From contig NZ_AUNI01000017.1 of the NCBI RefSeq assembly GCF_000447795.1, forward strand, positions 1-64,000: a DNA stretch of 64,000 bases, written 5' to 3'. This document shows, piece after piece, positions 5,733 through 24,259 of this stretch; the first letter of the stretch is position 1, and each line of letters begins with the position of its first letter. The notes beneath the pieces were generated by a model. That model ran no database searches and was not told the DNA's origin. It saw only the letters and a program-made list of their open reading frames with translations. The translations under genes and the position numbers were made by a program. Origin of the DNA: Bacteriovorax sp. Seq25_V (GTDB lineage Bacteria; Bdellovibrionota; Bacteriovoracia; Bacteriovoracales; Bacteriovoracaceae).

Positions 5733-6761
5733 TTAAACAAGCGCGTCGCCGTCTCCACCACGAGAGATAAACGCCTTACCTTGAGCTTCAAGTTCTTTAC
5801 ACTTTTGAACGATTTCAGATTGTGCTTTTTCAACATCTGAAAGTTTTGTTGGTCCAAGAGCATCAAGGTCTTCTTGTAATAATGTCGCAGCTCTGTTTGA
5901 CATGTTTTTAAATAGCTTCGCTCTAATCTCTTCAGGAGCTGTCTTAAGTGCAATAACCATTTTATTCTGATCAACTTCTTTAAGAAGAGCTTGAATACCT
6001 TTATCATCAACATAAACAAGATCTTCGAAAACAAACATAAGCTTTCTAATCTCTTCAGCAAGCTCTGGGTCTTTCTCTTCAACTCTTCCCATGATGTTTT
6101 TCTCAGAGTTCTTATCCATTAAGTTAAGCATATCTGCGATTGGTTCAACACCACCAAGTTGGTTAGTATCAATAGATCCGAGTGTACTAAGCTCTGTTTT
6201 AAGAACATCATCAAGCTGTGCGATAAGTTCTGGTGAAACGAAGTCTAGGTTTGCTACTCTTAGAACAACTTCGGCTTGAAGCCCTTCAGGAAGTCTTCGC
6301 AGTACATCTACTTTTCTTTCCGCATTTAAGTGAGCAACGATGAGTGCAATAGTCTGCGGATGTTCGTTAATTAGAAAGTTTGCAAGTGTTCGAGTATCAA
6401 CTAGCTCTAGAGATTCAAGCGTATTTGATGCTCCAACATCAACGATTTGTCCTAGAAGTTGCTTCGCTCTATCTTCACCAAGAGCGTTGATAATAAAGTC
6501 ACGGCCAGAGTTTTCAGAGAATAGTAAATCGTTCTCTTCATTAAGTTGTGAATAGAATTCTTCAAGAACTTTCTTAATCATCCAAATTGGCGCTCTTCTA
6601 ATGTTTCCCATTGCATTAATCATTCTCTTAACATCATTATCTCTCATGTAAGAAAATATTAACTGTGTTGTGGACACACCAAGGGAACTCAAAAGCAATG
6701 CTGCTTTATCCTGCCCTGAAAGAAGCGAGTATTCTACTTCTGGATCTAGTGATTCTGACAC
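5733..6761 (-). CDS. fliG: Flagellar motor switch protein FliG
   Basis: The 342-residue protein is the C-ring rotor component that takes torque from the stator. Visible signatures are the EHPQTIALIVAHL helix (middle domain), LRRLPEGLQAEVVLRVA and the C-terminal torque helix region (LVYVDDKGIQALLKEVDQ, FKNMSNRAATLLQEDLDALG). The length is usual. The start is GTG with a GGGTAGG ribosome binding site. fliF lies 19 bases upstream, matching the physical FliF-FliG contact, and fliH follows. Confidence 0.96.
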   Translation of the reverse strand: MSESLDPEVEYSLLSGQDKAALLLSSLGVSTTQLIFSYMRDNDVKRMINAMGNIRRAPIWMIKKVLEEFYSQLNEENDLLFSENSGRDFIINALGEDRAKQLLGQIVDVGASNTLESLELVDTRTLANFLINEHPQTIALIVAHLNAERKVDVLRRLPEGLQAEVVLRVANLDFVSPELIAQLDDVLKTELSTLGSIDTNQLGGVEPIADMLNLMDKNSEKNIMGRVEEKDPELAEEIRKLMFVFEDLVYVDDKGIQALLKEVDQNKMVIALKTAPEEIRAKLFKNMSNRAATLLQEDLDALGPTKLSDVEKAQSEIVQKCKELEAQGKAFISRGGDGDALV

Positions 6762-6780
6762 AACCTACCCCTTAAACCTT

Positions 6781-8442
6781 TTATGCTATCTGTTTATCCG
6801 ACTCATTATTATGAATCATTTCATGTATAATCTGTGCTGCCTTACCTGGATTCCCCTCAACAAGAGAGATGATCTTTTCACGGAGCATATTCCCCTCAAT
6901 TTTTTCAGGGTTAAGCTTTTCTTCAATCTGAGGAAGTGCGTCCTCAAGACCTGGAAGTTTTTGATTCGCCTGTACTTTCTCAAGCTCTTCAAGTGTACGA
7001 GGTAAGAAATCTTCAACTGTTTCAACCGTGTTATCAGTAACCCACTGGATGAATGGTCTTACAACAATGAAGAAGAAGAGTGAAATTGTTAAACCAACTG
7101 CAAGATACTTGAAAATATTCTTGATAAGCTCTCTGTTTTCTTTCTCTCTCATTAGAGCTTCAATCGACTCCATATCTTCTTGGTGAAATTCCATGTTTTT
7201 GATTGTGATTTTACTTCCACTTCTTTCATCAATACCAAGCGCAGAAGATACAATCGCTTCAAAATTTGCAATATCTGCTTCTAACCATGGCTCATACTTC
7301 ATTACAGTCTTACCATCGATTACAGTTGGAACTCTTTTTCCATCAACCATGACTGCAGCAGAGATTTTATTAATTTTCCCTGTTGGGTTTTTAGATTTTG
7401 TTACCTTCTTTGGAACATTGTAGTTCCGTGTAGCAAGCTCTTTATTCACGTCATTTCGTGTCTCTGGGACACCTGGTTGTGGTGTCTCACCAGGAAGATT
7501 TGATCTTGCACCCGGAATCCCTTGTGGAGAAGGTCTTGATCCTTGAAGTTTTTGTGTATTTGTAACTTCTGAAAGAACAGCTTTATTCTCCGAATCATAT
7601 TCTGTTTGCGTTGATACAGACTCAGTAAAGTCCATGATAACGTTAACCTTAGCGATTACCTTCCCTTCACCAACAACCTTCGCTAGAATTTCTTCAATTT
7701 GTCTTTCATATTGACGATTAAGTTTACTTTCTAGTGCCATTCTATTTGCCGTATTAGCAGTTAGGGCATCACCAATATTATCTGACAATCTTTTTCCTCT
7801 ATCATCTAAGATAACAACACCCTCTGCTCTCATTCCTTCAACAGAACTTGCAACAAGAGATGCGATACCTTTAATCTCAGATTCGCTCAGAGTTACACCT
7901 TGATCAAGATCAAGAACAACTGACGCAGTAGGAGCTTTCTTCTCTGTTACAAACGGTGAAGATTCTGGAATATTTAAGTGAACACGAGCTCTTTTAACTC
8001 CACGAAGATGTTTAATAGTTTTTACAAGTTCACCTTCAATTGCTCTTTGCTTATTAACCTTCTGTACAAAACTTGTAGTACCAAAAGATTGATTATCAAA
8101 TACTTCATAACCAACTGTCCCAGAGAAAGTGAATCCTTGAGTCATCATCTTAAGTCTTACAACTTCGATCATGTCTTCAGGAATACTAACAACCTTTTGA
8201 TCGTTACTCACCTGAACTGATACGTTATTTTCTTTTAAGAAAATTTGTACTTTATTTGAGTCTTCTTTGTTCAAATCCGTGTAAAGAACACTATATCTCG
8301 TCTTCGACGCCCAAAGAACTACACCTAGCAATGCGATAACAATAAATGATGCTACAGCAACTAAACTAATTTTCTTCCCTGAATCGAGGCTTGTGAAAAA
8401 CTCTGTGAAATTTCTAACAACCTTTTCGATAAAATCTTTCAA
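6781..8442 (-). CDS. fliF: Flagellar MS-ring protein FliF
   Basis: A 553-residue inner-membrane ring protein. Transmembrane segments lie near residues 24-45 and about 441-466, with the large periplasmic ring-building region between them. It includes YTDLNKEDSNKVQIFLKENN and RVHLNIPESSPFV, both YscJ/FliF family signatures. The C-terminal cytoplasmic tail, which binds FliG, ends with a helical EGNPGKAAQIIHEMI segment. The start codon is TTG, supported by AGGAGG five bases ahead. A 61-base gap to fliE holds no clear promoter. The protein is complete. Confidence 0.95.
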   Translation of the reverse strand: MKDFIEKVVRNFTEFFTSLDSGKKISLVAVASFIVIALLGVVLWASKTRYSVLYTDLNKEDSNKVQIFLKENNVSVQVSNDQKVVSIPEDMIEVVRLKMMTQGFTFSGTVGYEVFDNQSFGTTSFVQKVNKQRAIEGELVKTIKHLRGVKRARVHLNIPESSPFVTEKKAPTASVVLDLDQGVTLSESEIKGIASLVASSVEGMRAEGVVILDDRGKRLSDNIGDALTANTANRMALESKLNRQYERQIEEILAKVVGEGKVIAKVNVIMDFTESVSTQTEYDSENKAVLSEVTNTQKLQGSRPSPQGIPGARSNLPGETPQPGVPETRNDVNKELATRNYNVPKKVTKSKNPTGKINKISAAVMVDGKRVPTVIDGKTVMKYEPWLEADIANFEAIVSSALGIDERSGSKITIKNMEFHQEDMESIEALMREKENRELIKNIFKYLAVGLTISLFFFIVVRPFIQWVTDNTVETVEDFLPRTLEELEKVQANQKLPGLEDALPQIEEKLNPEKIEGNMLREKIISLVEGNPGKAAQIIHEMIHNNESDKQIA

Positions 8443-8503
8443 GGGATCCTCCTGATATTACTAATAGCTTCCTGCCAATAGTTAAAAACAACTCAACAAT
8501 AAA

Positions 8504-8863
8504 TTATATCTGCATTCTCATTACTTCTTTATATGCTTCAATAACCTTATTTCTCACTTGATTCATTGTCTTGAATGCAATTTCTGCTTTCTCAACTGCA
8601 AGCATTGTCTCTTGAATATTATTACTCTTTCCACTTACAAGTTTCTGGATAGCTGAATCAGCTTCTTTTTGTAAGTTATTTACATCTAAGATTTGATTCG
8701 AGAGCATTTCGCTGAACGTTAGTTTCGAATCTGCACGTGTTGTAGGATCAAGTTCAAAGTCATTTAAACTAATAGCACCTTCGATATCTGCAGACTTCGT
8801 CCACTTCTTCGTGTCATGTGTATTAAAAATGTCATTCATACTTTGAATATTATTGATGGCCAC
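8504..8863 (-). CDS. fliE: Flagellar hook-basal body protein FliE
   Basis: The 119-residue protein has the conserved FliE C-terminus: FSEMLSNQILDVNNLQKEAD, then MLAVEKAEIAFKTMNQVRNKVIEAYKEVMRMQI. FliE joins the MS ring to the rod and is exported early. The start is GTG with AAGGAG at six bases, and that site overlaps the end of flgC, so the two are coupled. Position between flgC and fliF is the common arrangement. Confidence 0.95.
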   Translation of the reverse strand: MAINNIQSMNDIFNTHDTKKWTKSADIEGAISLNDFELDPTTRADSKLTFSEMLSNQILDVNNLQKEADSAIQKLVSGKSNNIQETMLAVEKAEIAFKTMNQVRNKVIEAYKEVMRMQI

Positions 8864-8873
8864 AAACTACTCC

Positions 8874-9314
8874 TTAGTTGTTTCCAATTTCTAGCGCTTT
8901 CATCGCCATACTTTTAGTTGTATTCATTACGTTAATATTTGCTTCGTAACTTCTTGAAGCTGAAATCATATCAGCCATCTCTTCCATTACATTAATATTA
9001 GGATATGCTACATATCCTTGAGCGTTAGCATCTGGATGGTTCGGCTCATACTTTAAAATTGGTGGTTTATCTGTAGAAATTACTTCTGTTGCATGAACTT
9101 CTTGTGCTTGTGCATCTAGTTCACCTTCTAAAATATCAGAAAAACTCTTTCTTGCAGGTTCACTACCGAAAGCAACTTCTTTCTTACGATAAGGTCCACC
9201 TTCTGCAGTTCTTGTAGTTTGAGCGTTAGCGATATTTGAAGAAATGGCACCCATTCTCTTCTTATTCGCAGCAGCCCCTGAAGCACTAATTTTTAATGAT
9301 GTTAGTAAATCCAT
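8874..9314 (-). CDS. flgC: Flagellar basal-body rod protein FlgC
   Basis: A 146-residue proximal-rod protein. The N-terminus LKISASGAAANKKRMGAISSN plus IANAQT is the rod/hook family signature, and the C-terminus (MISASRSYEANINVMNTTKS) carries the matching SxRxYEAN motif of the D0 coiled coil. It is exported through the type III apparatus and forms the rod with FlgB. It lies 11 bases downstream of flgB. Confidence 0.95.
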   Translation of the reverse strand: MDLLTSLKISASGAAANKKRMGAISSNIANAQTTRTAEGGPYRKKEVAFGSEPARKSFSDILEGELDAQAQEVHATEVISTDKPPILKYEPNHPDANAQGYVAYPNINVMEEMADMISASRSYEANINVMNTTKSMAMKALEIGNN

Positions 9315-9325
9315 TATCTATGCTC

Positions 9326-9733
9326 CTATTTCTCTTGGTTGATTGTATATTTCAACATTCCAAGTTTTTTATTCAATAACTTTACTGCTGAATCATACAA
9401 AATTTTATTCTCTGCCATTTTGGCTAATTCTGCATCACGATCTACGGTGTTGCCGTCTTCACTCACAACACCATTTGGATCTTCATAAATTTCGGGTTGA
9501 AGATTTTCGAATCCACCATTTCCTACATCAAAATGCCCATTTTCGGAGGTCAGCATTTCCATGTTTCCATCAACATCAAGTGCTCTTTGTAGAGCATCTT
9601 CAAAATCAACACGTTTTGCTTTATACCCTGGAGTATCGGCATTCGCGATATTTGAAGACAGAATCTCATGTCTCATTTGTCTGAGATTTAGAGACGCTGC
9701 AAGTGCTTTTAGTGTTTTATCTTCAATCTTCAT
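9326..9733 (-). CDS. flgB: Flagellar basal-body rod protein FlgB
   Basis: The 135-residue protein has the FlgB N-terminal signature LRQMRHEILSSNIANADTPG followed by YKAKRVDFEDALQRAL, and a C-terminal helix (ENKILYDSAVKLLNKKLGMLKYTI). FlgB is the most membrane-proximal rod subunit. It starts 11 bases after the stop of the NtrC-like gene, so that gene and the rod genes share a transcript. Confidence 0.96.
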   Translation of the reverse strand: MKIEDKTLKALAASLNLRQMRHEILSSNIANADTPGYKAKRVDFEDALQRALDVDGNMEMLTSENGHFDVGNGGFENLQPEIYEDPNGVVSEDGNTVDRDAELAKMAENKILYDSAVKLLNKKLGMLKYTINQEK

Positions 9734-9744
9734 TCGCCCTCAAA

Positions 9745-10674
9745 TTATCTTAAGTTAACGAAGTAAGAGTTACCTTCTGTTCTATATTCATTAATTTTAT
9801 TTCTAAGTGTTCTAATCGAAACACCAAGAATTTTTGCAGCTTGAGTTCTGTTCTCGCTTGTGTGAACAAGAGCTTTTTTGATAAGTAGTCTCTCAGCTTC
9901 TTTAAGTGACATAAGTCTAATACCTTCAGAGTCTTCTTCAGAGATAACATTAACAACTTTCTTCTCTCCAATTTCTAATTGTTCTTCAGAAAGTACATCA
10001 CCATCGAAATTAACAAGAGAACTCTCAAGAACAGCTTTTAGTTCTTTTACATTGTGAGTCCAGTAATGAGTAACTAGTTTTTGTAAAGCAGCTTCTTCAA
10101 TTGACACTGAACCTTCGAAACAGTCTTTGATAATATTATTTGCAACAACTTCAATATCGTTAATTCTTTCTCTTAGCGGAGTTAGAGTGATTGAGTTGTT
10201 TGAAAGGTTTGTATATAGACCTCTATAAAATCTTCCAGCTCCAACAAGCTTAGAAAGATTCTTAGTTGTTGTTGCTATGATACGTAGATCGATATCATAA
10301 TCATCAAGCTCACCTAAGATCTTATGTAATTTCTTTTGAAAATCTTCTTCAAGAGCATCGATGTTTACAAGAACAACTGTCCCACCATTTGCGTTTTCTA
10401 GAGCACCTTTAACGAATCTTCCTGACTCAGCTTCTCTGTAACCTAGAATTTCATTTTCAACTTGAGTAGAACCTGTTCCACAATCAACTGTTACGAATGG
10501 CTTATTAGCTCTTGTTGAATTCTCGTGAATGAACTTAGCAAGAGTTTTCTTACCTACTCCGGCTTCTCCAACAACTAGTACTGGAACTTTTGTTACAGCA
10601 ACGTTTCTCGCTACCTTTACCGCTTTAACAATCTTTGGATCCTGTCCGAAGTACTCTGCTGTTAATGTGTTCAT
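9745..10674 (-). CDS. Degenerate NtrC-like AAA+ protein with Fis-type HTH, in flagellar operon
   Basis: A 309-residue protein with the fold of a sigma54 activator but no receiver domain. Residues 8-230 form the AAA+ domain with an intact Walker A (GEAGVGKKT, 36-44). Residues 270-295 form a Fis-type helix-turn-helix (RTQAAKILGVSIRTLRNKI). Key parts are lost: where [13 protein letters not shown] should stand it has EILGYREAESGRF (75-87); Walker B DE is replaced (VVLVNIDAL); and both arginine-finger positions in FRxDLYYRL have changed (FYRGLYTNL). So it may bind DNA and perhaps ATP but probably cannot contact sigma54 or hydrolyse ATP normally. Being inside the operon, it may be an assembly-linked regulator. 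The family is sure; the role is inferred. Confidence 0.85.
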   Translation of the reverse strand: MNTLTAEYFGQDPKIVKAVKVARNVAVTKVPVLVVGEAGVGKKTLAKFIHENSTRANKPFVTVDCGTGSTQVENEILGYREAESGRFVKGALENANGGTVVLVNIDALEEDFQKKLHKILGELDDYDIDLRIIATTTKNLSKLVGAGRFYRGLYTNLSNNSITLTPLRERINDIEVVANNIIKDCFEGSVSIEEAALQKLVTHYWTHNVKELKAVLESSLVNFDGDVLSEEQLEIGEKKVVNVISEEDSEGIRLMSLKEAERLLIKKALVHTSENRTQAAKILGVSIRTLRNKINEYRTEGNSYFVNLR

Positions 10675-10713: not shown

Positions 10714-13341
10714 TTATAATGTTCGTTTTTTTAAGTTTAGTAATGTCAGCTCTGACCTTGCCATTTCCTTAATATAGCTCTCTACAGATGTTGAATTCAT
10801 TAAATCTGTGAGAATCTTTTCACCTTCATCAAATTTTCTAAGTCTTAAATTTTCTCTTCCTAATAAAAATTTAATTCTATTTAAATATGATGAATCTTTG
10901 AAATCTTTTACAAACTTATTGGCTTCCTCCAATACATCTGCCTTATTTTGAGAAAACATAATCTCAAGTCTTAAATACCCAACTCGATCTTTCATTTTGT
11001 GTACGACGGCCTTATCAACCTTGAATGAAGATGCATCTTTAACGAGTGCATCTGATACATCTATAAATTTAGCATATTTTGCCTGTTCATAAATAGACTC
11101 TAAATAATTTACAACACTGTCGACTAAATCTTTGCCATCAATAATGTCAAAATTAACATTCTTAGAAAAAAATCTTTCATAAGCTGTCTCTGCTTGACTA
11201 AAGTTCTTTTGACCATATAGAGCCATAGCACGATAAAACTGTGCAATTGCATTACCTGGTGTCACTTTGTCCATTTCATTGGTTAATTTTTCGACACTAG
11301 ACCAATTTCCAAGCTTAACATTTCTTAAAATTTGAAGTTGCTTTTCAATAAGATCAGCGTTCTCTGTTGTCGTTCTCGTGAGCCAAATTGGGTATGTTCT
11401 ACTTTTCTGCTCTTTCGTTTTCCCTATCAATTCGTAAATTTTTTGAAATCCTTCCCAAAGACCAAGGTTTGCGTAAGACTTCGCGATGATGAACTGGATT
11501 TCAGGGTCAGCTGCTACTTTTTCAAAGTATACTGACTTATATATTTCCCAGGCTCTGATCGATTTCGCATACTCGCCGTTATCATAACTTTTCTTTATAA
11601 TTCCGTAGACAACTTCTGCACCATCACCTTCAAAAACGACCTTAAATGAACTGTCCATCGCTGCCAGAGGAAGCGCAGTTAAAAATGTCAGCGCGTCTTG
11701 ATAGTTCCCATCCACGATAAATGATCTTAACCTTGTTAACCAGAGCAGTCTTTCTAACTCAGGCGTTAAGTTTGACTGTTCACCTTTATCCAAGAACACC
11801 TTAACTTCTTTATCTTCTGTAGTTGGTTTAATTTTTCTAATCGCACGTAGACCAACATATCTAATCCTAGCCTCAAGGCTGATGTCGACTGCCTGTGAAC
11901 GATTGATAGCATTTTTGTATAATTCTTCAACTTCACTTTCTTTTCTCTCTAGAATATCACTAGCAAGAGCTACTCTAAGTCGTGCAGCAGATGAGGCAGA
12001 ATGAAAAGAATACTTGCTCAGGAAATTATCATAAGCAGCAATACTTTTTTGATATTCTGCTGTTCTAAAATAAGCTTCAGCAGCATTGAAATATAAAGAT
12101 GGAAGGAGATCACCCTTTGTGGATTTTGTAAAATTCTCAAAGAGCTTAATCACTTGTTCTTCATCACCAAGTTTTAAGTATGTATACATTTCATAAGCAA
12201 TTTGCTTTTGCTTTGGTAGAATCTTTTGAATTGTTTTCTCAGAAATTAAAGACTTAATTTTATCAATCTGATTCAAGTTTGATAAAGATAGAAGCATCAA
12301 TTCAGTTGCATACTCAAGCTCTTCATAGTCAAAATTCTCTTTTGCATCAGCAAAGAATCTTTTTGCATATTTTAAAGTAGATATACTGTCCTGCTTCTCT
12401 AAATAGTATTGAATGAGATACTTGTAGATTCCTCTTCTAAATTCGTAAACAGGAGTCTTTTCAGCAATATTAGAAAACATTGCAACAGCTGTATCGATAG
12501 GCTTGATGTCACCAGCATCAGAAGACTCTCTCAGAAGTGCATTAGCCTTTAAGTACTCATTCATTGTGAAATTAGCATCATCTTTATACTTTTCTTCATA
12601 AAGCTTTATAGATTTTGCCATTAATCCCCATTTCTTCTTTCTGTAAAGATTAATAGAGAGTTGCATATGAGCTTCTTTATCATCTTTATCGAATTTTCTG
12701 TCTTCAATCGGATAAAAGAACTCTGGAGTCTTACGGTCTAAAAAAATTGTTTTAGAAATTTTTGGGAGTATTGGAGCATAATCCCAAATAAAAGAAGCAC
12801 CATATCTAAAATCACGGTATGTTTTCTCTTTTTTTACGATAGGAGCTGCAATAGGCTTAACTCTTACTACTTTTTTAATTTCGGCTGGCTTTTTTACAAC
12901 AGGTGCAATTTTGGCAGCAGGTACTTCTGCTTTCACGGCAGCAGACTTCTGAGAAACAGTTCCACCATCCTTCCAAAAATCAATATAGTAGGCAACATCT
13001 CTATTCTTATAGAAAGAGAAGATCTCAACATCGTCTTTTAGATTGATATTTACTGAGAATACAGCGTTACCTTCTACAGGTTCCAATTCTTTTACACTCT
13101 GAACATATGGGCTATTCTTAACAGCTTCTAGTTCCTTTTTAAGTGAACCAAAAACTTCTGAGTCTAACGTTTTTAATGTTAGAACTTTTCCAAGACGAGA
13201 AATTTTGATTAATTCTTTATTTGTATAGACTTTTACACGGAAGAAACCATCATTAGATTCTGCTTCTACAATCTTTGCAGATGTTGACCAACAAGAGAGG
13301 GCCAAAAAAGTGATGAATGTTAGAACATTACGCTTTTTCAT
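10714..13341 (-). CDS. Exported TPR-repeat protein heading the flagellar operon
   Basis: I place the start at the ATG at 13341 because MKKRNVLTFITFLALSCWSTSA is a good signal peptide; an ATG 75 bases upstream is in frame but would bury it. The mature protein has an N-terminal beta-rich domain (about 30-130), a Lys/Pro/Ala linker (KKPAEIKKVVRVKPIAAPIV), then some 650 residues of helical TPR-like repeats (SLYFNAAEAYFRTAEYQKSI, YRAMALYGQKNFSQAETAYE). It is 875 residues, probably periplasmic, with no catalytic motif. A location upstream of flgB suggests a scaffold for flagellar assembly, but this is inference from context. Confidence 0.75.
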   Translation of the reverse strand: MKKRNVLTFITFLALSCWSTSAKIVEAESNDGFFRVKVYTNKELIKISRLGKVLTLKTLDSEVFGSLKKELEAVKNSPYVQSVKELEPVEGNAVFSVNINLKDDVEIFSFYKNRDVAYYIDFWKDGGTVSQKSAAVKAEVPAAKIAPVVKKPAEIKKVVRVKPIAAPIVKKEKTYRDFRYGASFIWDYAPILPKISKTIFLDRKTPEFFYPIEDRKFDKDDKEAHMQLSINLYRKKKWGLMAKSIKLYEEKYKDDANFTMNEYLKANALLRESSDAGDIKPIDTAVAMFSNIAEKTPVYEFRRGIYKYLIQYYLEKQDSISTLKYAKRFFADAKENFDYEELEYATELMLLSLSNLNQIDKIKSLISEKTIQKILPKQKQIAYEMYTYLKLGDEEQVIKLFENFTKSTKGDLLPSLYFNAAEAYFRTAEYQKSIAAYDNFLSKYSFHSASSAARLRVALASDILERKESEVEELYKNAINRSQAVDISLEARIRYVGLRAIRKIKPTTEDKEVKVFLDKGEQSNLTPELERLLWLTRLRSFIVDGNYQDALTFLTALPLAAMDSSFKVVFEGDGAEVVYGIIKKSYDNGEYAKSIRAWEIYKSVYFEKVAADPEIQFIIAKSYANLGLWEGFQKIYELIGKTKEQKSRTYPIWLTRTTTENADLIEKQLQILRNVKLGNWSSVEKLTNEMDKVTPGNAIAQFYRAMALYGQKNFSQAETAYERFFSKNVNFDIIDGKDLVDSVVNYLESIYEQAKYAKFIDVSDALVKDASSFKVDKAVVHKMKDRVGYLRLEIMFSQNKADVLEEANKFVKDFKDSSYLNRIKFLLGRENLRLRKFDEGEKILTDLMNSTSVESYIKEMARSELTLLNLKKRTL

Positions 13342-13489
13342 TCTGGTAGAAACTTCCTGTTTCAGTGACAGCCATGTCAAATTTTTATCAGATTCTTCTT
13401 CCTGAAGATCTATCATTTCTAATTCTACATCGTTTTTAAAAATTTTAAAGGAAAATTTTGCTTAGAGGACATTTTTTCCGTCCATTTTT

Positions 13490-13518
13490 TTGACATGGGA
13501 AAGTCTGTTCGGATTTAC
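13490..13518 (+). promoter_or_regulatory. Candidate sigma70 promoter for the mla operon
   Basis: A perfect TTGACA at 13490-13495 is followed after 17 bases by ATTTAC at 13513-13518, a weak match to TATAAT. It points into the operon beginning at 13593. Two AAGGAG stretches lie downstream, the second of which precedes a six-codon reading frame. Confidence 0.4.
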
Positions 13519-13592: not shown

Positions 13593-14069
13593 ATGAGACT
13601 TTTGTTTATATTAAATTTTGCATTATTTTTAGCTTCTTGCTCTACAATCACAAGCAGTGCCCCCGATTCAAAAGATGATAAATTAAAAGTAAATCCAGGA
13701 ATAAATTGGAAAAGTATTAATAGCGATCAAGCCGATTACGCCTACTCAAGTAGCAATTCAGACAATATTCTTTTCATTAACTCTTTATGTAAAAAATATG
13801 AAAATAGCAGTATTAAAAATTTAATGTACTCACTTCTTGGAAACACAGATTACAAAATATTAAACGAAAAAAATCTTACATTATTTAACAGAGAGACTAT
13901 GTCATATGAAATTGAAACAAAAGTTGATGGAGTTAAGACATATTTGAATATAGTTTTATTAAAAAAAGATCGCTGTATCTATGACTTCGTTCTCATAAAC
14001 CCAAAAGAGAAGTCCGACTCAAATACTCTTGATGAGTTTTATGAAATTGTTAAGGCCAGTAGTTTATGA
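13593..14069 (+). CDS. Small lipoprotein, first gene of the mla-type operon
   Basis: A 158-residue protein with a lipoprotein signal (MRLLFILNFALFLASC, Cys16). The remainder shows no known domain; it has one Cys pair (LCKKYE and DRCIYDF) that might form a disulphide. Its stop overlaps the ATG of mlaE by four bases, so it is co-translated with the lipid transporter. It may be an accessory lipoprotein of that system, but it does not resemble MlaA or MlaB. The ribosome binding site is weak. Confidence 0.65.
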   Translation: MRLLFILNFALFLASCSTITSSAPDSKDDKLKVNPGINWKSINSDQADYAYSSSNSDNILFINSLCKKYENSSIKNLMYSLLGNTDYKILNEKNLTLFNRETMSYEIETKVDGVKTYLNIVLLKKDRCIYDFVLINPKEKSDSNTLDEFYEIVKASSL

Positions 14070-14830
14070 TCTCAAAGATTCGAAGGCATATTTTCACAAT
14101 TGGAGAAATTTACAACCTTTTTCAAAATACACTAATCTGTTCTTTCACAGGCCCTATATACTGGCATCGAGTAATTGAACAAATTCGCTTTATAGGACTT
14201 GGTTCAATTTCAATAACAATTGTTATTGGACTCGCAATGGGTCTTGTTATGACCTTAAATTTTGGCTTTGGTCTAAAGAAATTTGGTGGGACTCTATATG
14301 TTCCAGCCGTTGTGTCACTTTCACTTGCGAGAGAGATGGCCCCCTTATTCACTTCACTGTTAATAGCAGGTCGTGTTGGTTCTGGGATAGCTTCAGAAAT
14401 AGGTGCGATGAATGTGACTCAGCAAATAGATGCTCTAAGAGCATTAGGAACAAATCCTATTCGCGTCCTTGTTGTTCCTAGATTTTGGGCCAGCATAATT
14501 TCTCTTCCACTCTTATCTAGTCTCTCCTGTATTCTTGGAATTCTTGGAGGACTGATAGTCTGCATGAATGAATTTGATATGTCCGCAGGTTTCTATTTTA
14601 ATAAGGTCTTAATTACTGTTAAAACTCCGGACTATATTTCAGGTTTGGTGAAAGCAATGATTTTCGGTGGAATAATTTCAATTGTTGGTTGCTACCGGTC
14701 ATTTAACACGACAGGAGGAACTAAGGGTGTGGGAAACAGTACAACTTGGGTAGTTGTTACAAGCTCTATTTTAATACTAATCACAGACTTTTTCTTAAGT
14801 AAGGTCTTTCTGGTTTATTGGACTAAATGA
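14066..14830 (+). CDS. mlaE: MlaE-family ABC permease
   Basis: The 254-residue integral membrane protein has MlaE/YrbE signatures: LSLAREMAPLFTSLLIAGRVGSGIASEIGAM, a conserved membrane-lining loop (first part at about residues 87-106), and ITSSILILITDFF-like C-terminal helices. It is the inner-membrane permease that moves phospholipids between inner and outer membranes together with MlaF and MlaD. It overlaps both neighbours by four bases. The start at 14066 is fixed by the ATGA overlap. Confidence 0.93.
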   Translation: MISKIRRHIFTIGEIYNLFQNTLICSFTGPIYWHRVIEQIRFIGLGSISITIVIGLAMGLVMTLNFGFGLKKFGGTLYVPAVVSLSLAREMAPLFTSLLIAGRVGSGIASEIGAMNVTQQIDALRALGTNPIRVLVVPRFWASIISLPLLSSLSCILGILGGLIVCMNEFDMSAGFYFNKVLITVKTPDYISGLVKAMIFGGIISIVGCYRSFNTTGGTKGVGNSTTWVVVTSSILILITDFFLSKVFLVYWTK

Positions 14831-15588
14831 TGAGCAAACCTCTTTTAGAACTGCAAGATATACATAAGATCTTCGGTAGGAAAGTTGTTCACCAAGGGAT
14901 ATCATTTGATATATTTCCAGGACAAAGAGTCGGACTCCTTGGTTCGTCAGGGACTGGAAAATCTGTTTTACTCCGCTCCATCATAGGGCTTGAGTATATA
15001 ACAAAGGGGAAGATTTATTTCGAGTCTAAACGTATCGACAACCTCTCTGAAAGAGAAATGACTTCGATAAGAACTCAGATTTCCTACTCGTTTCAATCTG
15101 GGGCACTTTTTGACTCTATGAATGTATTTGAAAATTTAGCTTTTCCACTTTTTGAACACACAAACCTCTCTCTTGATGAAGTCGATCAAAAGATTGATCA
15201 AATGCTCGAGCAAGTTGATTTAAGTCACGCAAAACATCTCATGCCCTCAGACCTGTCAGGAGGGATGCAAAAGCGAATAGGAATGGCGAGATCAATGATA
15301 CTCTCCCCTAAAATTATTCTTTATGACGAACCCACTGCGGGACTCGATCCGGCAAATACTGTTAATGTTGTTGAACTCATGAAAAAATTTAGCTCGTCTG
15401 GAGTAACTTCTATATTTGTAAGTCATGATATTCCAGCGATTCAAGAGTTTTGCGAGAGGGTGATTATTCTAGACAAAGGAAGAGTTGTTTTTGATAACGA
15501 TATTGATACTTTTAAAAATTCAAATGACCCAATAGTTAGACGTTTTCTAATTGCGGAAGGATTTAAACATGCAAATAAGACCTCATGA
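14827..15588 (+). CDS. mlaF: MlaF-family ABC ATPase
   Basis: The 253-residue ATPase has Walker A GSSGTGKS (about 36-43), the signature LSGGMQKR, Walker B IILYDEPTAGLD and an H-loop SHD. The GGMQKR variant is typical of the Mla/Mce ATPases. It powers MlaE. ATGATG at the start gives two possible initiators three bases apart; the first overlaps the mlaE stop. Confidence 0.94.
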   Translation: MMSKPLLELQDIHKIFGRKVVHQGISFDIFPGQRVGLLGSSGTGKSVLLRSIIGLEYITKGKIYFESKRIDNLSEREMTSIRTQISYSFQSGALFDSMNVFENLAFPLFEHTNLSLDEVDQKIDQMLEQVDLSHAKHLMPSDLSGGMQKRIGMARSMILSPKIILYDEPTAGLDPANTVNVVELMKKFSSSGVTSIFVSHDIPAIQEFCERVIILDKGRVVFDNDIDTFKNSNDPIVRRFLIAEGFKHANKTS

Positions 15589-16381
15589 AAAGAAAAATAT
15601 AGTTGTTGCTGGAGTGTTTGTTTCTGCACTTTTGCTGCTGTCCTCCACTTTTGTTTTTTTCTTAAGTAAAGATACATCTCTTTTCCAAAAAAGATTTAAT
15701 ATTTATGCGAAAGTAGCCAATGCTCAAAATTTGAAATCTGGTGCTTTTGTACAGTTCAAAGGTATTAAAGTTGGAAATGTGGAGCAAATTCGAATTGATA
15801 GCTTAGACTCAATAACTATTATTATGACGATCAACAGTGATATTCGTCAATGGATTAGAGAGAACTCATATATTAAGTTTAAAACAGAAGGAGTTTTAGG
15901 AGATAAATTTCTGGAAATTCTTGGCGGTACAGATGACTCTCCAGTAATTAAGGAAAACTCTGAAATTGAAGTTCAATCTTCTCCAGAAATAGCAAACTTT
16001 CTCTCAAAAGGAGAAGATATTATAGTTACAGCTGCTAGAGTTCTTGAGAGAGTTGACAAACTTCTTATCAAAATTAACTCTGATCAATTTGAATCCTTTG
16101 TTAATGACATCAATCAGACCGCTGAAAATACAAATCGGATCATGTCTTCAATCAACAGTGAAGATCTCAAACAAATCGGCCCATCTATCTTAGAACTTAA
16201 TAAAACGATGAGGAGCTTTAATAATATCTCATCTCGAATCGAAAATGGTCCCGGTACTTTGCATGACCTCATTTACGATCAAGCTATTAGCGATGATATA
16301 AAATCTCTAACTGGTGGAGCCAATAGGTCTAAGGTTCTTAAGTATTTTATTCGAGAGTCAATTAAGAAGAGTGAAAAATAA
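15569..16381 (+). CDS. mlaD: MlaD-like protein with one MCE domain
   Basis: The start at ATG 15569 has GGAAGG eight bases ahead; an upstream TTG in the same frame has none. The 270-residue protein has one N-terminal membrane anchor (IVVAGVFVSALLLLSSTFVFF), then a single MCE domain (KVANAQNLKSGAFVQFKGIK, GVLGDKFLEILGG). A helical tail follows (about 170-270) that may extend through the periplasm. MCE proteins form hexameric rings that carry lipid to the outer membrane. It overlaps mlaF by 20 bases. No mlaB or mlaC follows here. Confidence 0.9.
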   Translation: MQIRPHEKKNIVVAGVFVSALLLLSSTFVFFLSKDTSLFQKRFNIYAKVANAQNLKSGAFVQFKGIKVGNVEQIRIDSLDSITIIMTINSDIRQWIRENSYIKFKTEGVLGDKFLEILGGTDDSPVIKENSEIEVQSSPEIANFLSKGEDIIVTAARVLERVDKLLIKINSDQFESFVNDINQTAENTNRIMSSINSEDLKQIGPSILELNKTMRSFNNISSRIENGPGTLHDLIYDQAISDDIKSLTGGANRSKVLKYFIRESIKKSEK

Positions 16382-16410
16382 AAAGGGTCATTTCTGACCC
16401 TTTCTTTTTA
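16382..16410 (+). terminator. Rho-independent terminator, mla operon end
   Basis: A nine-base-pair stem, AAAGGGTCA at 16382-16390 and TGACCCTTT at 16395-16403, has a four-base loop and is followed by CTTTTTATT. The A-run before the stem lets it work for the convergent gene ending at 16408 as well, so it is probably bidirectional. Confidence 0.85.
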
Positions 16411-19400
16411 TTCAGTTTTTAAGAATTTCGGATAAGCAGTCTGTTTATATCGTTTAGAGATAATATCAAATAGAGTATCTCCCTCTTCAACATCAAGATC
16501 TTCACGTTTTAAGCCATCAAGAACTCGCTGTGTCTCTCCTCGAGTTAATCCTGTTACTTGATTTGTTGCTACTCCACTTCCAGTACCACCATATCCAGAA
16601 CCATAACTTCCAGATCCAGAACCTGATCCACCTCCACGGCCTAAAGTTTGATTACGAAGTCCAGCCCCTCCACTAATTGCTTGGTTTGTTCCATTTCCAC
16701 CTAAATCTAGAGCATCAGATGAACCACCCATATTGGCCTTAGAACCACCAGAACCTTTCTTAGAATTACCTAAAGCACTAGATCCAAGACGAAGGAAACT
16801 GTCACTTAATTTAGAGAAAAAGTTTTTAGAGTTACCCTTATCGAATGACTTCCCGTATGTTTTATCAAGAGAATCAACGTAATTACCAATTAATTTATCT
16901 TTTCTCTTCTTCTTGCTGTTATCAACAAGTTTGTCAGTCTTTATCTTTCTAGCATTTCTATCTAATGCAAACTGCGCTTGAGAGTCAAAAACAGTCTTAT
17001 CAAGATTAGATGTCGCCGCTGAATTGAGTTTTGGTTTTTTAGAGACACCATACATAGAAAGAATATTTGAAGCAATAAGGTTACCTGTTCCAAACATTTT
17101 ACTTTGACCAATTCCTCCTAAAGAAGTGATCGCAGAGGCTAAGTTCTTTGTTGAATTAGAACCTTGAGTAACATTCCCTTCTGACGCCATATTTGATGCA
17201 GTTTGCCCTGATTGAGTATTTGGCGTCACTGTAACATCAGAACGCTCATAGCCTGCAGTACATGTTCTTTGTGCTAAGAATATTTTCCCTTGTGCCTCAA
17301 TAAACTTATGTAGAAATTCTGTAATTTGTACCATTCTCATAGGTATAAGAGCTTTCCCTAGTGGAACTCTTACTTGATAATTTGTAATAGATTGCTTATC
17401 ACAGATATAAGGTATTACCTCACTTTTATTGTCTTTTATTTCTCCTCTTTTAAAAGTAGTACCCGATTGCATTGAGCTTGAGAATTCGCTAAAGAACTCA
17501 TTCTTTGCAAGTGTACTATTTTCCCTTAAAGGAAACTCTTGTCCATATAAATGGAAGATATTCTTATACCATTCCGGTTGCTGTACCTCTGTGACTTCAC
17601 CTTTTAAATAATCAATTACTGGAGCATATTCTTTTAATTCTGCAATTTCACTCTCTGTTTTAAGAAACTCTTTATTTGAGTATAAATACTTCTTAAATCC
17701 AGGTTCAAGCTCTGGTAAAATTCTTGCTCTTGAAGAAATTAACTGTGTTGGATAAATTGGATTGTGTAAGAAGTCTGTAATAACTCTATACTTCAATCTA
17801 TTTGCAATTTCTCTTGTATTAAATGAGTCAGCTTGTTTGTGTTTAATTAACCAATTAAACTCTGAACAGTTCTCCTTATGAGCACAGTACCAAACTAAGT
17901 TTTGCCCTGTTAGAGAAGCTCTCTCAAGTTCCGTTACATAGATATCAAAAGCTCCAAGAATTGCTTTAACATATGCAATATTTGCATCAATCATAAATTC
18001 TTGAGCAACTTGTGAACCTTCCTGTATATCTGGAACGTCTTTCAGAAGGTTATCTTCAGCTAAGTTCGGCTTAACAGCATCAGTACTTCCTTCCTCAACT
18101 TTTTTAAAGTAAGCATAAGTTTCATCAACTTTCACTTTCACTTCTGGACACTGGTCACCATCAATATCAAGTTCTTTAACTCGTGTAACTCCTAAATCAA
18201 TAGATTTGATAAGAAGAAACTCATTTAAATCGCAAACAATTTTCTTCGTTATTTTTTCATGATCAATTTTAATTTTTGCATACTCAGTTCTAAAACTAAC
18301 TGCAGAATCATGAATGATTTTAATTGCTTCATTATTCAATTTTCTATTTTGTGGAATATTTTCATTGGCCTCTCTATTTTCAAGAGAAATTTGCTTAATT
18401 GGATCAGCTTGACCATCAAGAATAGTGAACATATTTTCGTATACGGCAAGCTCTTTAAAGACAGAATCCGCGTATGAAACAATTCCTTCATCTAACTGCT
18501 GACTACAACGACGTCCATCATTTTCATCTGTAATAATCTCTGGAATCTTCTCTGTCTCAGGTAACGCTGGAGCAATGTATTCTGGTACATTACAAATTTT
18601 TGTGTCTGGATCATGAATTAGACCATTACAACATGTATTCCCCTGCTCTGATTTCTCTCCTGCCATCGTACACATTTTCTGCTTCCAGGCTACTTTCAGT
18701 TTGAAACGAGCATGGCAGTAGTTAATCACTTCTACACCCCAGCCCCCATCAAAGCTTCCTTTGTCTTTTGAAAGATAATCAATCGGAGATCCATTCCCTC
18801 CAGGATTACAGCGGTTCGGTCCTAGCTTTTCAAGAAGTTCAATATTATAAATTCTCGAAATTTCACGGCTCTCATCAATTTCATCTGTAAGCTTTCCATT
18901 TTTATCCTTCTTATAAAGATGAGCTTTACACCAAACGGTACCCGTTGACTCGGTATTTTGAGTTGGATCAACATCATTTGGATTTGGTGAACCATTCCCA
19001 TCACAAGTTAGAAATGTGTCTTCAACACCAGAAACAGGAATACTCTCATCTTCAAATGGAGTTACATCACATGTTGGACGATATCCACAACTTGGATCTT
19101 TGTACTGAATACCAAATTCACCATGACATGACTGGTGTACCCAAATTTTATTATCACCAGCAGAACCAAAACTCTTATCCTTCACACACGAAGACTGACC
19201 TTTTTTCTTACGTAGATAAACATTTCCAATAACTCGATTAATGAAGTTTTCATCTGTAATTTCACAGATTTTTTTCTGATAACAATATGATCTACACTCT
19301 AAGGCAATTGTCTTTGTTTGATCTTCGAAATCTGCACAAGTATAAAGCTCGCGATTTGGATCCTCAAAGTAATCAGACTCTTTAGTGATGAAATCATAAC

Positions 19401-20067: not shown

Positions 20068-20215
20068 AATTCCACCTAATCCAACTAAATTATTTTATAC
20101 TTTCTAATATATTACTAACGAAAACCGATAGTTAATTAAATCCCAAAAAACTATTAAGATTCCTATAAAATCAATAAATAATACTTTTATTTTATAGGAA
20201 AAAGGCGTCAATGTA
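20068..20215. promoter_or_regulatory. Divergent promoter region between two large secreted-protein genes
   Basis: The 148-base gap is about 80 percent A+T and must drive both genes. I see no hexamer pair good enough to name a promoter. An ACCGATAG box near 20127 is weakly like a sigma28 minus-10 element but lacks a spaced TAAA partner. The rightward gene has AAGG ten bases before its ATG. Confidence 0.3.
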
Positions 20216-22738
20216 ATGAAAACAAAATTTGCCACCTTTCTAAAAGCTATAGTAATTTCAAGCATTTATACATTGAGCATTTCTACAGCTATAGCTGCTC
20301 CACAATCTTTTGTTTGTGAGAATACCCGACAATTAAACGGTGATTTTGCCAATGTGGCATCAAAGCAATACGTTTACTTATCTGCCCCAAGACAATTTAA
20401 AGAGTTTTCTATTTCTCGAAGTGATACTCCGAGAGTTTTCAATAAGCTCGCCCAATCGAAGTGGACTATTTCTAATGGGAATGAAAAAATTATGATCAAT
20501 CTCCTCGCTCTTTCCAAAAAGATCCAGCGAGAGACTTCTCTTAATCTGAGTTTTCTCGTCAATTTTTCAATTAGTAAAAATTCTTCTGATTTTGATGTTA
20601 GTCCAATCGCAAAAATTAAGTCCGAAAAATCCCCTTCACTTCCAAATTCAGAAGTATTCTTCTTTGATGACTCAACTCCTATTTACGAATCCCTTGGTCT
20701 TCCAAAGAATGCACACTTTGTTAAGACGGGACCTTATTATATTGAATATAATTATAACTTTGGAATGATTAATCGCATTGCAAGGACAATTGCAAGTGCC
20801 TATCTTTATGATGCTGTTGTCTGCACTGTTGATAAAGAACTTAAGATCAAGCTCATTGAAGATCAGAAAAATGTAAGTGATATTACTTTTAACTTTGATA
20901 AATGGCCTAAGTCACTAAATCCCCTTAAGCAATCTATTGCCCAAATTTATTTTGATCACTTCATTTCAAATGAAAACTTTACTCCTAACAAAGATATCAC
21001 GACACTTTTTACTCAAGTTGATTTTAATTCACTTGTATTAACAACAAAAGTTAACCTTTCAACTATCAATCAAGATAAAAAAGAAACTATTCTCTCATAT
21101 ATTCATGATATGAAAATTTCCTCAGATAAAACTCCTGGAGTTACTCGCTTTCTTAATCCTAATCATATTAAAGGGAAAAGTCTTTTTACTCTAGATTTAG
21201 ACAAAACCAAAGAAGCAAATAACAGAAAAGCCTATTCATATAATAAATATGTCGATCTCGAATTAATTTCAAAAGTATCGCTTAATCGCATCAATAATGA
21301 CTTCTACTTTTATTTCCAACCAAAGAAGACGAGTGATCACTTTATTGAAATTGGTCCTATAGACTTTAAGAAACTATACTGGAGAGAAGGCTTTGAAAAC
21401 TTTGGTACTTGCACAGAAAAAGTTATGAAGCACCTCAATGAATATGAACGAAAAGCTTTTGTTTTCGAGCAAAAAAATGATGCAATCATTGATTCTTGGG
21501 CTGATTTAGTAAAGTTACAGACACTCAAAAAATATCCTCTAGAACAATTCATTCTAACTAACAATTGCCGAGGTCCAGGAAACTTCGAATACGAGTGGCC
21601 AGGCCTAATAAAAGGTTATTTTCAGATACCTTCAAAAATTATCGCTGACATTATTGATGAACTCTCTCCAAACTTTGGCTTCGATCAAATTGCCACAGAA
21701 GTACGCCCGACAAAGTTCTATCAATCAAGACATGGCGATAACATCGTCTCCCCGGCTAGTATTAAAGACTACGTTGTTTCACTATGGTCTAAATACAAAG
21801 AAGAAGATTATCGGTGGTATCGTCTCGGAAATTTTGATAAAGCGAAAGGCTCATGTAAAAGAGAGGACATTGTTAAAGATATTGGAACTAAAAATACTTT
21901 AACTAAAAATATTGATGTAGTTTACGAAAAAGGTGAAATTAATTTTCAAGATTATCTTGGAGAGACTCGCAAGAAATCATCTTACATAGGAGAAGGAGAA
22001 CCACTTGTTTATGTGAGAACTCCTTGCTCAGCGGAAGAAGCGACAATAGCTCCACCATTTGGTTTCAGGCCCCCAAGAAATCACATCACAACCCCTGGTA
22101 AAGAATACTGGGAGAAAAAAACATGTGAATGGATACCTCACAGATTCAGATACTACAAAGAATTAACGGCATATCCGATCGCTCTGAGTAAATTTGAAGT
22201 TGATGGTCTATACTCAGGAAAGTCACATAATACTTCAAAGTTTGAACTTTCATCTTACGATCAAAAATTACTTAAAGATGATAAATCGAGAATGAGCTTC
22301 GACTTTTCTGCTGCATGGTCATTCAAGAAAGCAAAACTCTCTCAGAACGAAAGTTATTTAACAATTGAACTCTCTTCAGAAGATCACAAAAACAACCTCG
22401 TTATTGGAAATATACCACTATCAAAACTGGACGCTGAAGCAAATCGCGAAGAGTTTAAAAGTTATACACGACCTTGGGCCAATGATTCTTTCAGAGGTGT
22501 TTACTCTTTGTTAGGGATTAATCCATTTCCTCTAAGTTCTTATTATGGAAATATAGAAACTGATAAGAGCCCTATTTACTCTTTCTTTTATGATCAAGAT
22601 GGAGAAATTTTAAACCATCATGAGAGAGATATTGGTATCGAGCAATGGTATGTCAGAAAGAAAGGTAAGAAGATTATTATCGATCTCCTCTCTCACGAAA
22701 GGATTACTCCTGTGGCCAGAATTATGCTCGAATTATAA
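20216..22738 (+). CDS. Large secreted protein of unknown function
   Basis: An 840-residue protein with a signal peptide (MKTKFATFLKAIVISSIYTLSISTAIA, cut before AP). It has no membrane segment, repeat or catalytic motif that I recognise. There are Cys residues in the N-terminal and central parts (VCENTRQ, FGTCTEKV, NNCRGPG, RTPCSAEE, KTCEW). Beta-rich sequence dominates. It is probably periplasmic or on the outer surface. It is divergent from the Cys-rich giant and overlaps the downstream convergent regulator gene by six bases. Function is unknown. Confidence 0.6.
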   Translation: MKTKFATFLKAIVISSIYTLSISTAIAAPQSFVCENTRQLNGDFANVASKQYVYLSAPRQFKEFSISRSDTPRVFNKLAQSKWTISNGNEKIMINLLALSKKIQRETSLNLSFLVNFSISKNSSDFDVSPIAKIKSEKSPSLPNSEVFFFDDSTPIYESLGLPKNAHFVKTGPYYIEYNYNFGMINRIARTIASAYLYDAVVCTVDKELKIKLIEDQKNVSDITFNFDKWPKSLNPLKQSIAQIYFDHFISNENFTPNKDITTLFTQVDFNSLVLTTKVNLSTINQDKKETILSYIHDMKISSDKTPGVTRFLNPNHIKGKSLFTLDLDKTKEANNRKAYSYNKYVDLELISKVSLNRINNDFYFYFQPKKTSDHFIEIGPIDFKKLYWREGFENFGTCTEKVMKHLNEYERKAFVFEQKNDAIIDSWADLVKLQTLKKYPLEQFILTNNCRGPGNFEYEWPGLIKGYFQIPSKIIADIIDELSPNFGFDQIATEVRPTKFYQSRHGDNIVSPASIKDYVVSLWSKYKEEDYRWYRLGNFDKAKGSCKREDIVKDIGTKNTLTKNIDVVYEKGEINFQDYLGETRKKSSYIGEGEPLVYVRTPCSAEEATIAPPFGFRPPRNHITTPGKEYWEKKTCEWIPHRFRYYKELTAYPIALSKFEVDGLYSGKSHNTSKFELSSYDQKLLKDDKSRMSFDFSAAWSFKKAKLSQNESYLTIELSSEDHKNNLVIGNIPLSKLDAEANREEFKSYTRPWANDSFRGVYSLLGINPFPLSSYYGNIETDKSPIYSFFYDQDGEILNHHERDIGIEQWYVRKKGKKIIIDLLSHERITPVARIMLEL

Positions 22739-24259
22739 TTCGAGCATATTTCTCTTTTTCATTTTTTCAATAAGTGTCGTTCTATTCATCGATAGGAGTT
22801 TTGAAGCCTGATTCTTATTACCACTTGTCTTTGTTAGTGCTTGTTTAATCAATGATTCTTCAACCTCATTTAGAAAAGTCTTTAAATCTATCCCCTCTTC
22901 AGGAAGACTGAAAACATCTTCTTCACTCACCACACGACGGTTTGAAAGTGCAATGATCTTTGGAGGAAGATCTTCAATTCTAATTGTGTTTCCACCTCTT
23001 AAGATAACAAGCCTTTCTATCAAGTTTTCAAGCTCTCTAACGTTTCCTGGCCAGTCGTAGCCGAGTAGAACTTCAAGAACCTCATCATCAAAGCTAATAG
23101 CATTTCTACCATCAGCGCTTACAAATCTTGAAAGGAAGTAAGAGATAAGAATTGGAATATCTTCTTTTCTATCTTTAAGTGCAGGTATTTTAATAGGAAT
23201 TACGTTAAGGCGGTAATACAAGTCTTCTCTAAAATTACCATCCGTAACAGACTTTTCAAGATCACGGTGGGTCGCTGTTACAATTCTCACATCGACAGGG
23301 ATAGGACTCGTAGACCCTACTCTTTCAATTTCTCTATTTTGAAGAACTCTTAAAAGTTTTACTTGTAAAAGAAGCGGCATATCGCCAATTTCATCTAAGA
23401 AGATAGTCCCACCACTGGCTACTTCAAAACGACCCATTCGAGTAGATATAGCACCAGTAAAGGCTCCCTTCTCGTGTCCAAAGAGTTCACTTTCGAGAAG
23501 TTCTGAAGGAATAGCACCACAGTTAACATTAATCACATTTTTACTAGCACGCGGAGAAAGTTCATGAATCGCCTTGGCGACAAGTTCTTTCCCTGTTCCA
23601 GATGGTCCACCAATTAGAACCGTAGAATTTGAATTCGCAACTTTTTTGATACGTTCAAATATTTTCTTCATGGCCTTAGAGCGACCAATCATTCCACAGA
23701 AAAAATCGTCTTCTGTTGGCTCTACTAATTTTACTTTCTTTGCAGTTGTTTCTTTTGCTTCTTCAACTTTATTATTAAAAAGTGAACTATCAACATTAAG
23801 TTTGGAAGTCATTGCTCGAACAACTAAATTTGAAAGAATCTCTAATTCAAAAGGTTTTGTAAGATAGTGAAATACTCCCTTCTTAGTTGCCGCAATAGCT
23901 GTTTCAATGGAAGCGAAACCTGTCATCACGATACTTGCAAACTTATAACCTTTATCTCTTAAAACATCGATGAGGTATAATCCATCTGTTCCAGAATTCT
24001 CAAAACTTATATCTGTTAAAAGGCAAAACTGGTCTACTTCATCAAGACCTGCAAGGTGGGCCAAGAAATCATTAGGGCCTTCAAAAGACTTAACCTTTAG
24101 GCCTAACTTTTTAGAAAGGTAGATCAGAATACTTTGGCTTAGTAGCTTGTCATCCTCTACTAAGTATATCATTGGGATCTCTTGATTTGAGACCGGCTTT
24201 TCTTCGATAAAATCTTTAAAATCTGAAAATGCATCACCAAGAAAATCTAAATCATTCAT
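22733..24259 (-). CDS. Sigma54-dependent response regulator (NtrC family)
   Basis: A 508-residue protein with a 28-residue leader, receiver domain (about 29-150; phospho-Asp83 in LLTDISF, Thr113, Lys135 in YLTKPF), sigma54 AAA+ domain (about 185-415; Walker [16 protein letters not shown] at 265-270, [27 protein letters not shown]) and a Fis-type helix-turn-helix at the end ([21 protein letters not shown]). All parts needed to open sigma54 promoters are intact. No sensor kinase gene lies beside it. The target genes are unknown. It contrasts with the degenerate relative in the flagellar operon. Confidence 0.95.

Follow-up and report, generated by a model that had tools for sequence, protein, structure and literature searches.

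Locus and gene organization

The window analyzed here is the whole 64,000-nucleotide stretch of DNA from Bacteriovorax sp. Seq25_V, and the gene under study is a minus-strand open reading frame with an ATG start, encoding a 309-amino-acid regulator of the FlbD/NtrC type (Table 1). Gene order bears out the original placement of this gene between a gene for a TPR protein and flgB. From the same order, the TPR gene appears to open the operon, which continues past flgB through flgC, fliE, fliF, and fliG. The true start of the TPR gene is likely the ATG at 13341. The arrangement, with mlaF-mlaE divergent from TPR-regulator-flgB-flgC-fliE-fliF-fliG, is common to many other families of the phylum. 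The longer order metK-NtrC-mla-TPR-regulator-flgB (13593-24259 in the window) also occurs in family f12 and looks ancestral; in Bacteriovorax sp. Seq25_V, two long genes (16408-22738) separate the mla genes from the NtrC gene. The NtrC-type protein near metK, originally described as intact, has its motifs in place on alignment.

Table 1. Features of the TPR-flgB operon region, with window coordinates, strand, and basis of assignment.
Feature	Coordinates	Strand	Basis
Degenerate FlbD/NtrC-type regulator without receiver domain	9745..10674	minus	ORF list, profiles, and orthologues
Walker A GEAGVGKK, residues 36-43	10546..10569	minus	orthologue alignment
Replacement of L1/GAFTGA loop, GYREAESGRFVKG, residues 78-90	10405..10443	minus	alignment
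Walker B position TVVLVNID, residues 99-106	10357..10380	minus	alignment
Pre-sensor-I/L2 region, shortened, residues 118-131	10282..10323	minus	alignment
Arginine-finger region GRFYRGLYTNLS, residues 147-158	10201..10236	minus	alignment
Fis-type helix-turn-helix (HTH), residues 255-299	9778..9912	minus	Pfam and alignment
flgB, directly downstream of regulator	9326..9733	minus	profiles and gene order
flgC, fliE, fliF, fliG, operon continuation	5733..9314	minus	named by order and known families
TPR protein with signal peptide, first operon gene	10714..13416	minus	profiles and gene order
CsrA-like AGGA site GAAACAGGAAGTTTC, overlapping TPR Shine-Dalgarno	13349-13363	minus	leader alignment
CsrA-like AGGA site TTCAGGAAGAA in leader	13396-13406	minus	leader alignment
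Sigma70-like -10 element GTAGAATTA, class-conserved	13420..13428	minus	upstream alignment
AT-rich near-palindrome GCAAAATTTTCCTTT, class-conserved, at -35 place	13447..13461	minus	upstream alignment
Candidate ancestral FlbD site TGTCAAAAAAATGGACGG	13478..13495	minus	motif and alignment; weak here, strong in several relatives
Intact NtrC-type response regulator near metK	22733..24259	minus	context only

Domains and lost motifs

Pfam profiles Sigma54_activat (2.9e-28), AAA_lid_14, and HTH_8 match the regulator, and Response_reg has no Pfam match, in agreement with the predicted absence of a receiver domain. Matches to the FlbD, NtrC, AtoC, and DhaR profiles of NCBIfam fall well short of the curated cut-offs, with FlbD second-best at 164 bits against an equivalog cut-off of 750, as expected for a divergent family member. 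Among solved structures, NtrC1 and FleQ are nearest, and an AlphaFold model with a mean pLDDT of 79, mostly above 85 in the AAA+ part, supports a folded AAA+ domain.

Alignment with intact relatives upholds both halves of the motif description given originally, in which Walker A and the Fis HTH were kept and GAFTGA, the Walker B acids, and both arginine-finger sites were replaced. The Walker A residues G36, E37, G39, G41, and K42 are invariant (34/34 orthologues), and the HTH, ENRTQAAKILGVSIRTLRNKINEYR, is intact. The GAFTGA region has become GYREAESGRFVKG, which is shorter than the original and has a conserved pattern of its own, G-x-R-D-x-E-T/S-G-R-F-x-K-G. At Walker B, LDE is replaced by LVN (V103, N104), such that the Asp is gone and the catalytic Glu is now Asn104; orthologues in the class of Bacteriovorax have LVN or FAN, with N104 invariant in A1 and His in three deeper class members. 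The first arginine-finger position is Y150 and the second is N156, and an invariant R151 is offset by one residue from the first. Three further losses go beyond the earlier description: the pre-sensor-I/L2 insertion is eight residues shorter than in intact relatives, K210 stands in place of the sensor II arginine (NVREL), and D64 in place of the "switch asparagine" (VNC). Thus, the AAA+ fold and Walker A remain of the traits of a sigma54 activator, and GAFTGA, the Walker B acids, and the arginine fingers are absent; these motif losses support the view that the protein can hardly be a normal sigma54 activator. The intact P-loop may still allow nucleotide binding without turnover.

Conservation in the class

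The class search covered 129 genomes, which share the single family code f1, with relatives named from GTDB contigs as Bacteriovorax, Halobacteriovorax, and Bacteriovoracaceae. A full or near-full orthologue was found in 117 of the 129, and the regulator is present between the TPR gene and flgB in every one of the 73 genomes with completeness of at least 90% and contamination of at most 5%; the 12 genomes that lack such an orthologue all fall below 90% completeness. The alignment of orthologues originally proposed as a check was informative, as the same losses recur in every one of the ∼59 class orthologues read (43 distinct sequences and 16 deeper ones), with intact orthologues confined to other families at the same locus. 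Against three near relatives, dN/dS of the regulator is 0.11-0.12. The mean top-residue frequency is 0.96 in the HTH, 0.72 in the AAA+ core, and 0.56 in the lid, and invariant residues have been gained within the replaced motifs (N104, K138-N139, F149, and R151, together with D125-Y126, D129, and R131 in the shortened L2 region).

These data bear on whether the gene is a decaying pseudogene or neutral remnant, the interpretation that intact orthologues would have favored. The loss of many catalytic motifs could be read in that way, as could the slots that lack the gene altogether in families f20 and f7 and in one f6 genus. Nevertheless, the gene is full-length in all near-complete class genomes, dN/dS is ∼0.12, the HTH is invariant, and new invariant residues have arisen inside the replaced motifs. 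Because the losses have become fixed and purifying selection acts on them, with no intact copy among the class orthologues read, simple decay is rejected for the class and is regarded as extremely improbable; the gene looks more like a regulator put to new use.

Orthologues in other families

Elsewhere in the phylum, this slot is occupied by an intact sigma54 activator, without a receiver in families f3, f8, f11, f15, f16, f18, and f23 and with one in f9 and the deltaproteobacterial locus L059; the receiver is thus missing from the regulator and from most families of the phylum. Partly altered regulators occupy the f24 and f17 slots and that of one f8 genome. In f12 (13/13 genomes), GAFTGA and the Walker B Asp are lost and the arginine fingers are mostly kept, and the loss arose by a different deletion from that in the class. 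GAFTGA is also lost in f6, which at a guess corresponds to Bdellovibrionaceae, and in two f6 genomes a deletion has removed most of the region between GAFTGA and sensor I; the open frames that remain are 238-256 amino acids long and retain an intact HTH.

Orthology of these slot regulators rests on position and on the HTH, of the RTLRNK(I/L)NEY type, that the regulator shares with intact flgB-linked activators. On these grounds, the best explanation of the sequences is that the regulator is the class orthologue of the FlbD-type flagellar activator found ahead of flgB across the phylum. In a FliG-FliF-FlgC-FlgB-FliE tree, f12 groups with the intact families f8, f15, and f16 (node support 100, with 87 for the f8/f15/f16 node), f6 groups with the intact f11 (100), and both stand apart from the Bacteriovorax class. 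Since f12 and f6 each group with intact families and away from the class, the tree points to at least three independent losses, in the class, f12, and f6, assuming that regain is unlikely.

A second disarmed bacterial enhancer-binding protein (bEBP) was seen in the same genome as the regulator (locus L002, G000:C15:222765-223664, in a 560-amino-acid frame), with GAFTGA replaced by EELDLA, Walker B reading VNN, and the second arginine finger lost; it has 32-36% matches over ∼520 amino acids in many class genomes.

Promoter of the TPR-flgB operon

The region upstream of the TPR gene was scored with a sigma54 matrix that approximates the consensus. With this matrix, a -24/-12 site was found at 8/9 loci with an intact regulator, at 6/6 f6 loci, at 4/4 loci with a partly degenerate regulator, and also in f20; L198 is an intact-regulator locus without a match. 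No such site was found at 20 class loci or nine f12 loci, and ten further class loci had no clear site, with a best, borderline score of 11.7. Loss of rpoN was considered as the cause of disarming and rejected, as rpoN is kept in 55/58 relatives. An intact RpoN box, ARRTVAKYRE, in one class rpoN argues, though not conclusively, against a changed sigma54 specificity.

In place of the sigma54 site, the class loci carry a conserved sigma70-like -10 element (TAGAAT or TAAAAT), with no good -35 box visible, and a further element lies upstream of the AT-rich near-palindrome at the -35 place. The near-palindrome has a single copy in the window, which is no excess over chance. In f12 (L073, L199-L206), where the sigma54 promoter is likewise lost, the TPR gene is preceded by another promoter-like element, strongly conserved and ending in CTGCCACAATAGG.

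Most class loci also have CsrA-like sites in the leader (13349-13406 in the window), TTCAGGAWGAA and GAAACAGGAWGTTTC/CGAACAGGATGTTTCG, the second lying over the TPR Shine-Dalgarno sequence. The genome encodes csrA near a flagellin-family gene, and the leader RNA has no excess structural stability. Among the flagellin genes of the class (L208-L236), several have sigma28-like promoters, such as TAAAG-N-GGCGATAA, located ∼100-118 bp ahead of the start, and sigma54 scores at those flagellin genes that were scored are low, reaching at most 6.5.

Candidate ancestral binding site

De novo motif discovery in 18 loci from outside the class returned TGTCA-N6-TTTGnCGG, with a log-likelihood of 112.8 versus 55-60 in shuffles. 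This motif lies 83-85 bp before the sigma54 site in 9/18 loci and 141 bp before it in two more, and the lowest score belongs to L187, where the regulator is gone from the slot and the sigma54 site is kept. With its conservation and set spacing, the motif is a candidate for an ftr-like site of the kind bound by FlbD-type regulators. The model, trained without the class, was then scored on 20 class loci, where the motif falls at a fixed place 36-46 bp upstream of a TTTCCTT box. It is the best of ∼38 windows in 8/20 loci (Fisher chi2 110.5, df 40, a significance that is overstated because the loci are related). In Bacteriovorax sp. Seq25_V itself, the candidate site is alignable but weak, scoring 1.2 bits, with four of the 37 other windows scoring better, and its center lies at about -72 from the start predicted by counting from the -10 box. 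The motif was not recovered at a fixed place in f12, a simple dyad count in class promoters did not single out the TGTCA element, and TGTCA-N6-TGAC has fewer matches across the window than expected by chance, such that no wider regulon can be read there.

Proposed mechanism and alternatives

The preferred reading, considered somewhat probable, is that the regulator is an FlbD without ATPase activity that has kept its binding to the ancestral site and controls the basal-body operon independently of sigma54. Sigma54 activation would have been abandoned in the ancestor of the Bacteriovorax group, with loss of the sigma54-touching L1 and L2 loops, the hydrolysis residues, and the arginine fingers, and the sigma54 promoter of the operon would have been swapped for a sigma70-like one. 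The P-loop and an almost frozen HTH would have been retained, with nucleotide possibly bound and not turned over. An oligomer of the regulator would most likely bind the old site upstream of TPR-flgB-flgC-fliE-fliF-fliG and regulate the operon via sigma70-RNA polymerase. Binding of the candidate motif, the promoter class, the sign of regulation, and nucleotide binding are all inferred from sequence. Of the roles originally proposed, DNA binding as a non-enzymatic switch seems the best supported, given the near-invariant HTH and the apparent persistence of the ancestral site. Separate pieces of this model come from published work: the R. capsulatus NtrC that lacks GAFTGA needs ATP binding, not hydrolysis (PMC10274813), and PspF E108Q, with the Walker B Glu changed to Gln, shows better ATP binding and is constitutively hexameric (PMC4132715).

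As to the sign of regulation, it is possible, though unlikely, that the regulator represses its own operon, keeping the repressing half of the dual role of FlbD. Caulobacter FlbD represses the early operon fliF and activates later genes (PMC3930126), and the regulator sits inside an early operon; however, the candidate site near -72 lies upstream of the -10 region rather than across it. A better fit to repression would be the AT-rich palindrome near -40, but it is not tied to the protein. Activation is leaned toward because a position such as -72 is one that ordinary upstream activators use and the promoter has no good -35 box.

Mixed rings are a still less probable alternative, in which the regulator would be a passive, DNA-holding subunit that targets or dampens an intact sigma54 activator, the NtrC near metK or another, at flagellar sigma54 promoters elsewhere. 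The retained AAA+ fold and P-loop would permit this, as would the hexamers of PspF E108Q, in which the same Glu is changed (PMC4132715), and the genome encodes intact activators and rpoN. The sigma54 promoter in f6 survives despite a disarmed regulator, and another activator should work there; a hetero-complex is thus possible, above all in f6. Yet the arginine fingers, needed in trans by the ring neighbor, are lost, the flagellin genes look sigma28-like rather than sigma54-dependent, and two f6 genomes have deleted most of the core that separates Walker A from the lid. Such a deletion should block ring assembly, yet the HTH is kept. The special partnership with the nearby NtrC that was originally suggested is not supported, as this NtrC is an old neighbor of metK that lies near the operon in some genomes only, and the class operon has no recognizable sigma54 promoter on which the pair could act.

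Beyond the preferred reading of an ATPase-dead regulator in the class, a broader interpretation is offered tentatively: one flagellar locus would have been disarmed at least three times independently in the phylum, twice with replacement of the sigma54 promoter, keeping the HTH and, in one class, the ancestral site. Evolution would then have turned a sigma54 "remodeller" repeatedly into an ordinary DNA-binding regulator, with a hydrolysis-dead pocket that binds nucleotide as a passive switch. As part of this interpretation, the change of the Walker B Glu to Asn and of the switch Asn to Asp would be a near-reciprocal swap. A Glu-Asn switch pair has been described (PMC7175178).

Little is documented about how regulators and promoters move to another sigma-factor class while an essential assembly line such as the flagellum keeps working. 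Across the phylum, the regulator at this one locus can be intact, half-disarmed, fully disarmed, AAA-deleted, or absent, with matching promoter states, making the order of steps testable, with disarming first in f6 versus disarming plus promoter change in the class and f12. Annotations of a "sigma54-dependent regulator" at flagellar loci in these bacteria are also likely wrong for whole families.

Comparison with known systems

The open-access papers searched included none that deals with this locus in Bdellovibrionota. NtrC-family proteins that regulate without sigma54 include VpsR and TyrR, both of which carry N-terminal sensory domains. VpsR (7v2b) is a structural and sequence match to the regulator, which, unlike VpsR and TyrR, has almost no N-terminal domain. 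Fis has the same HTH class (HTH_8; Fis profile 1e-6) but is ∼98 amino acids by profile length and has no AAA+ core, whereas the regulator has a predicted ordered AAA+ fold. The short f6 forms appear to show an NtrC-type protein shrinking toward its DNA-binding end.

FlbD of Caulobacter crescentus is, like the regulator, an NtrC-family flagellar regulator; it is sigma54-dependent and has both activating and repressing roles, exerted via its partner FliX and not through a cognate kinase (PMC3930126, PMC7064773). It differs in having a receiver (PMC3930126), GAFTGA (PMC10274813), and sigma54 promoters, all of which are lost in the regulator or the class operon. The NtrC proteins of Rhodobacter capsulatus and Caulobacter that lack GAFTGA have a natural deletion of the L1 loop and act at sigma70 promoters (PMC10274813), and the regulator resembles them in its deleted L1/GAFTGA and its retained HTH. 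The operon of the regulator has a putative sigma70 promoter with a -10 box of that type. Those NtrC proteins, however, keep the receiver phosphorylation site and are not members of flagellar operons, and the function of Caulobacter NtrC depends on residues of both Walker motifs, A and B, whereas the regulator is without Walker B and arginine fingers. Relatives lacking GAFTGA are already known elsewhere, and the regulator adds a variant to them.
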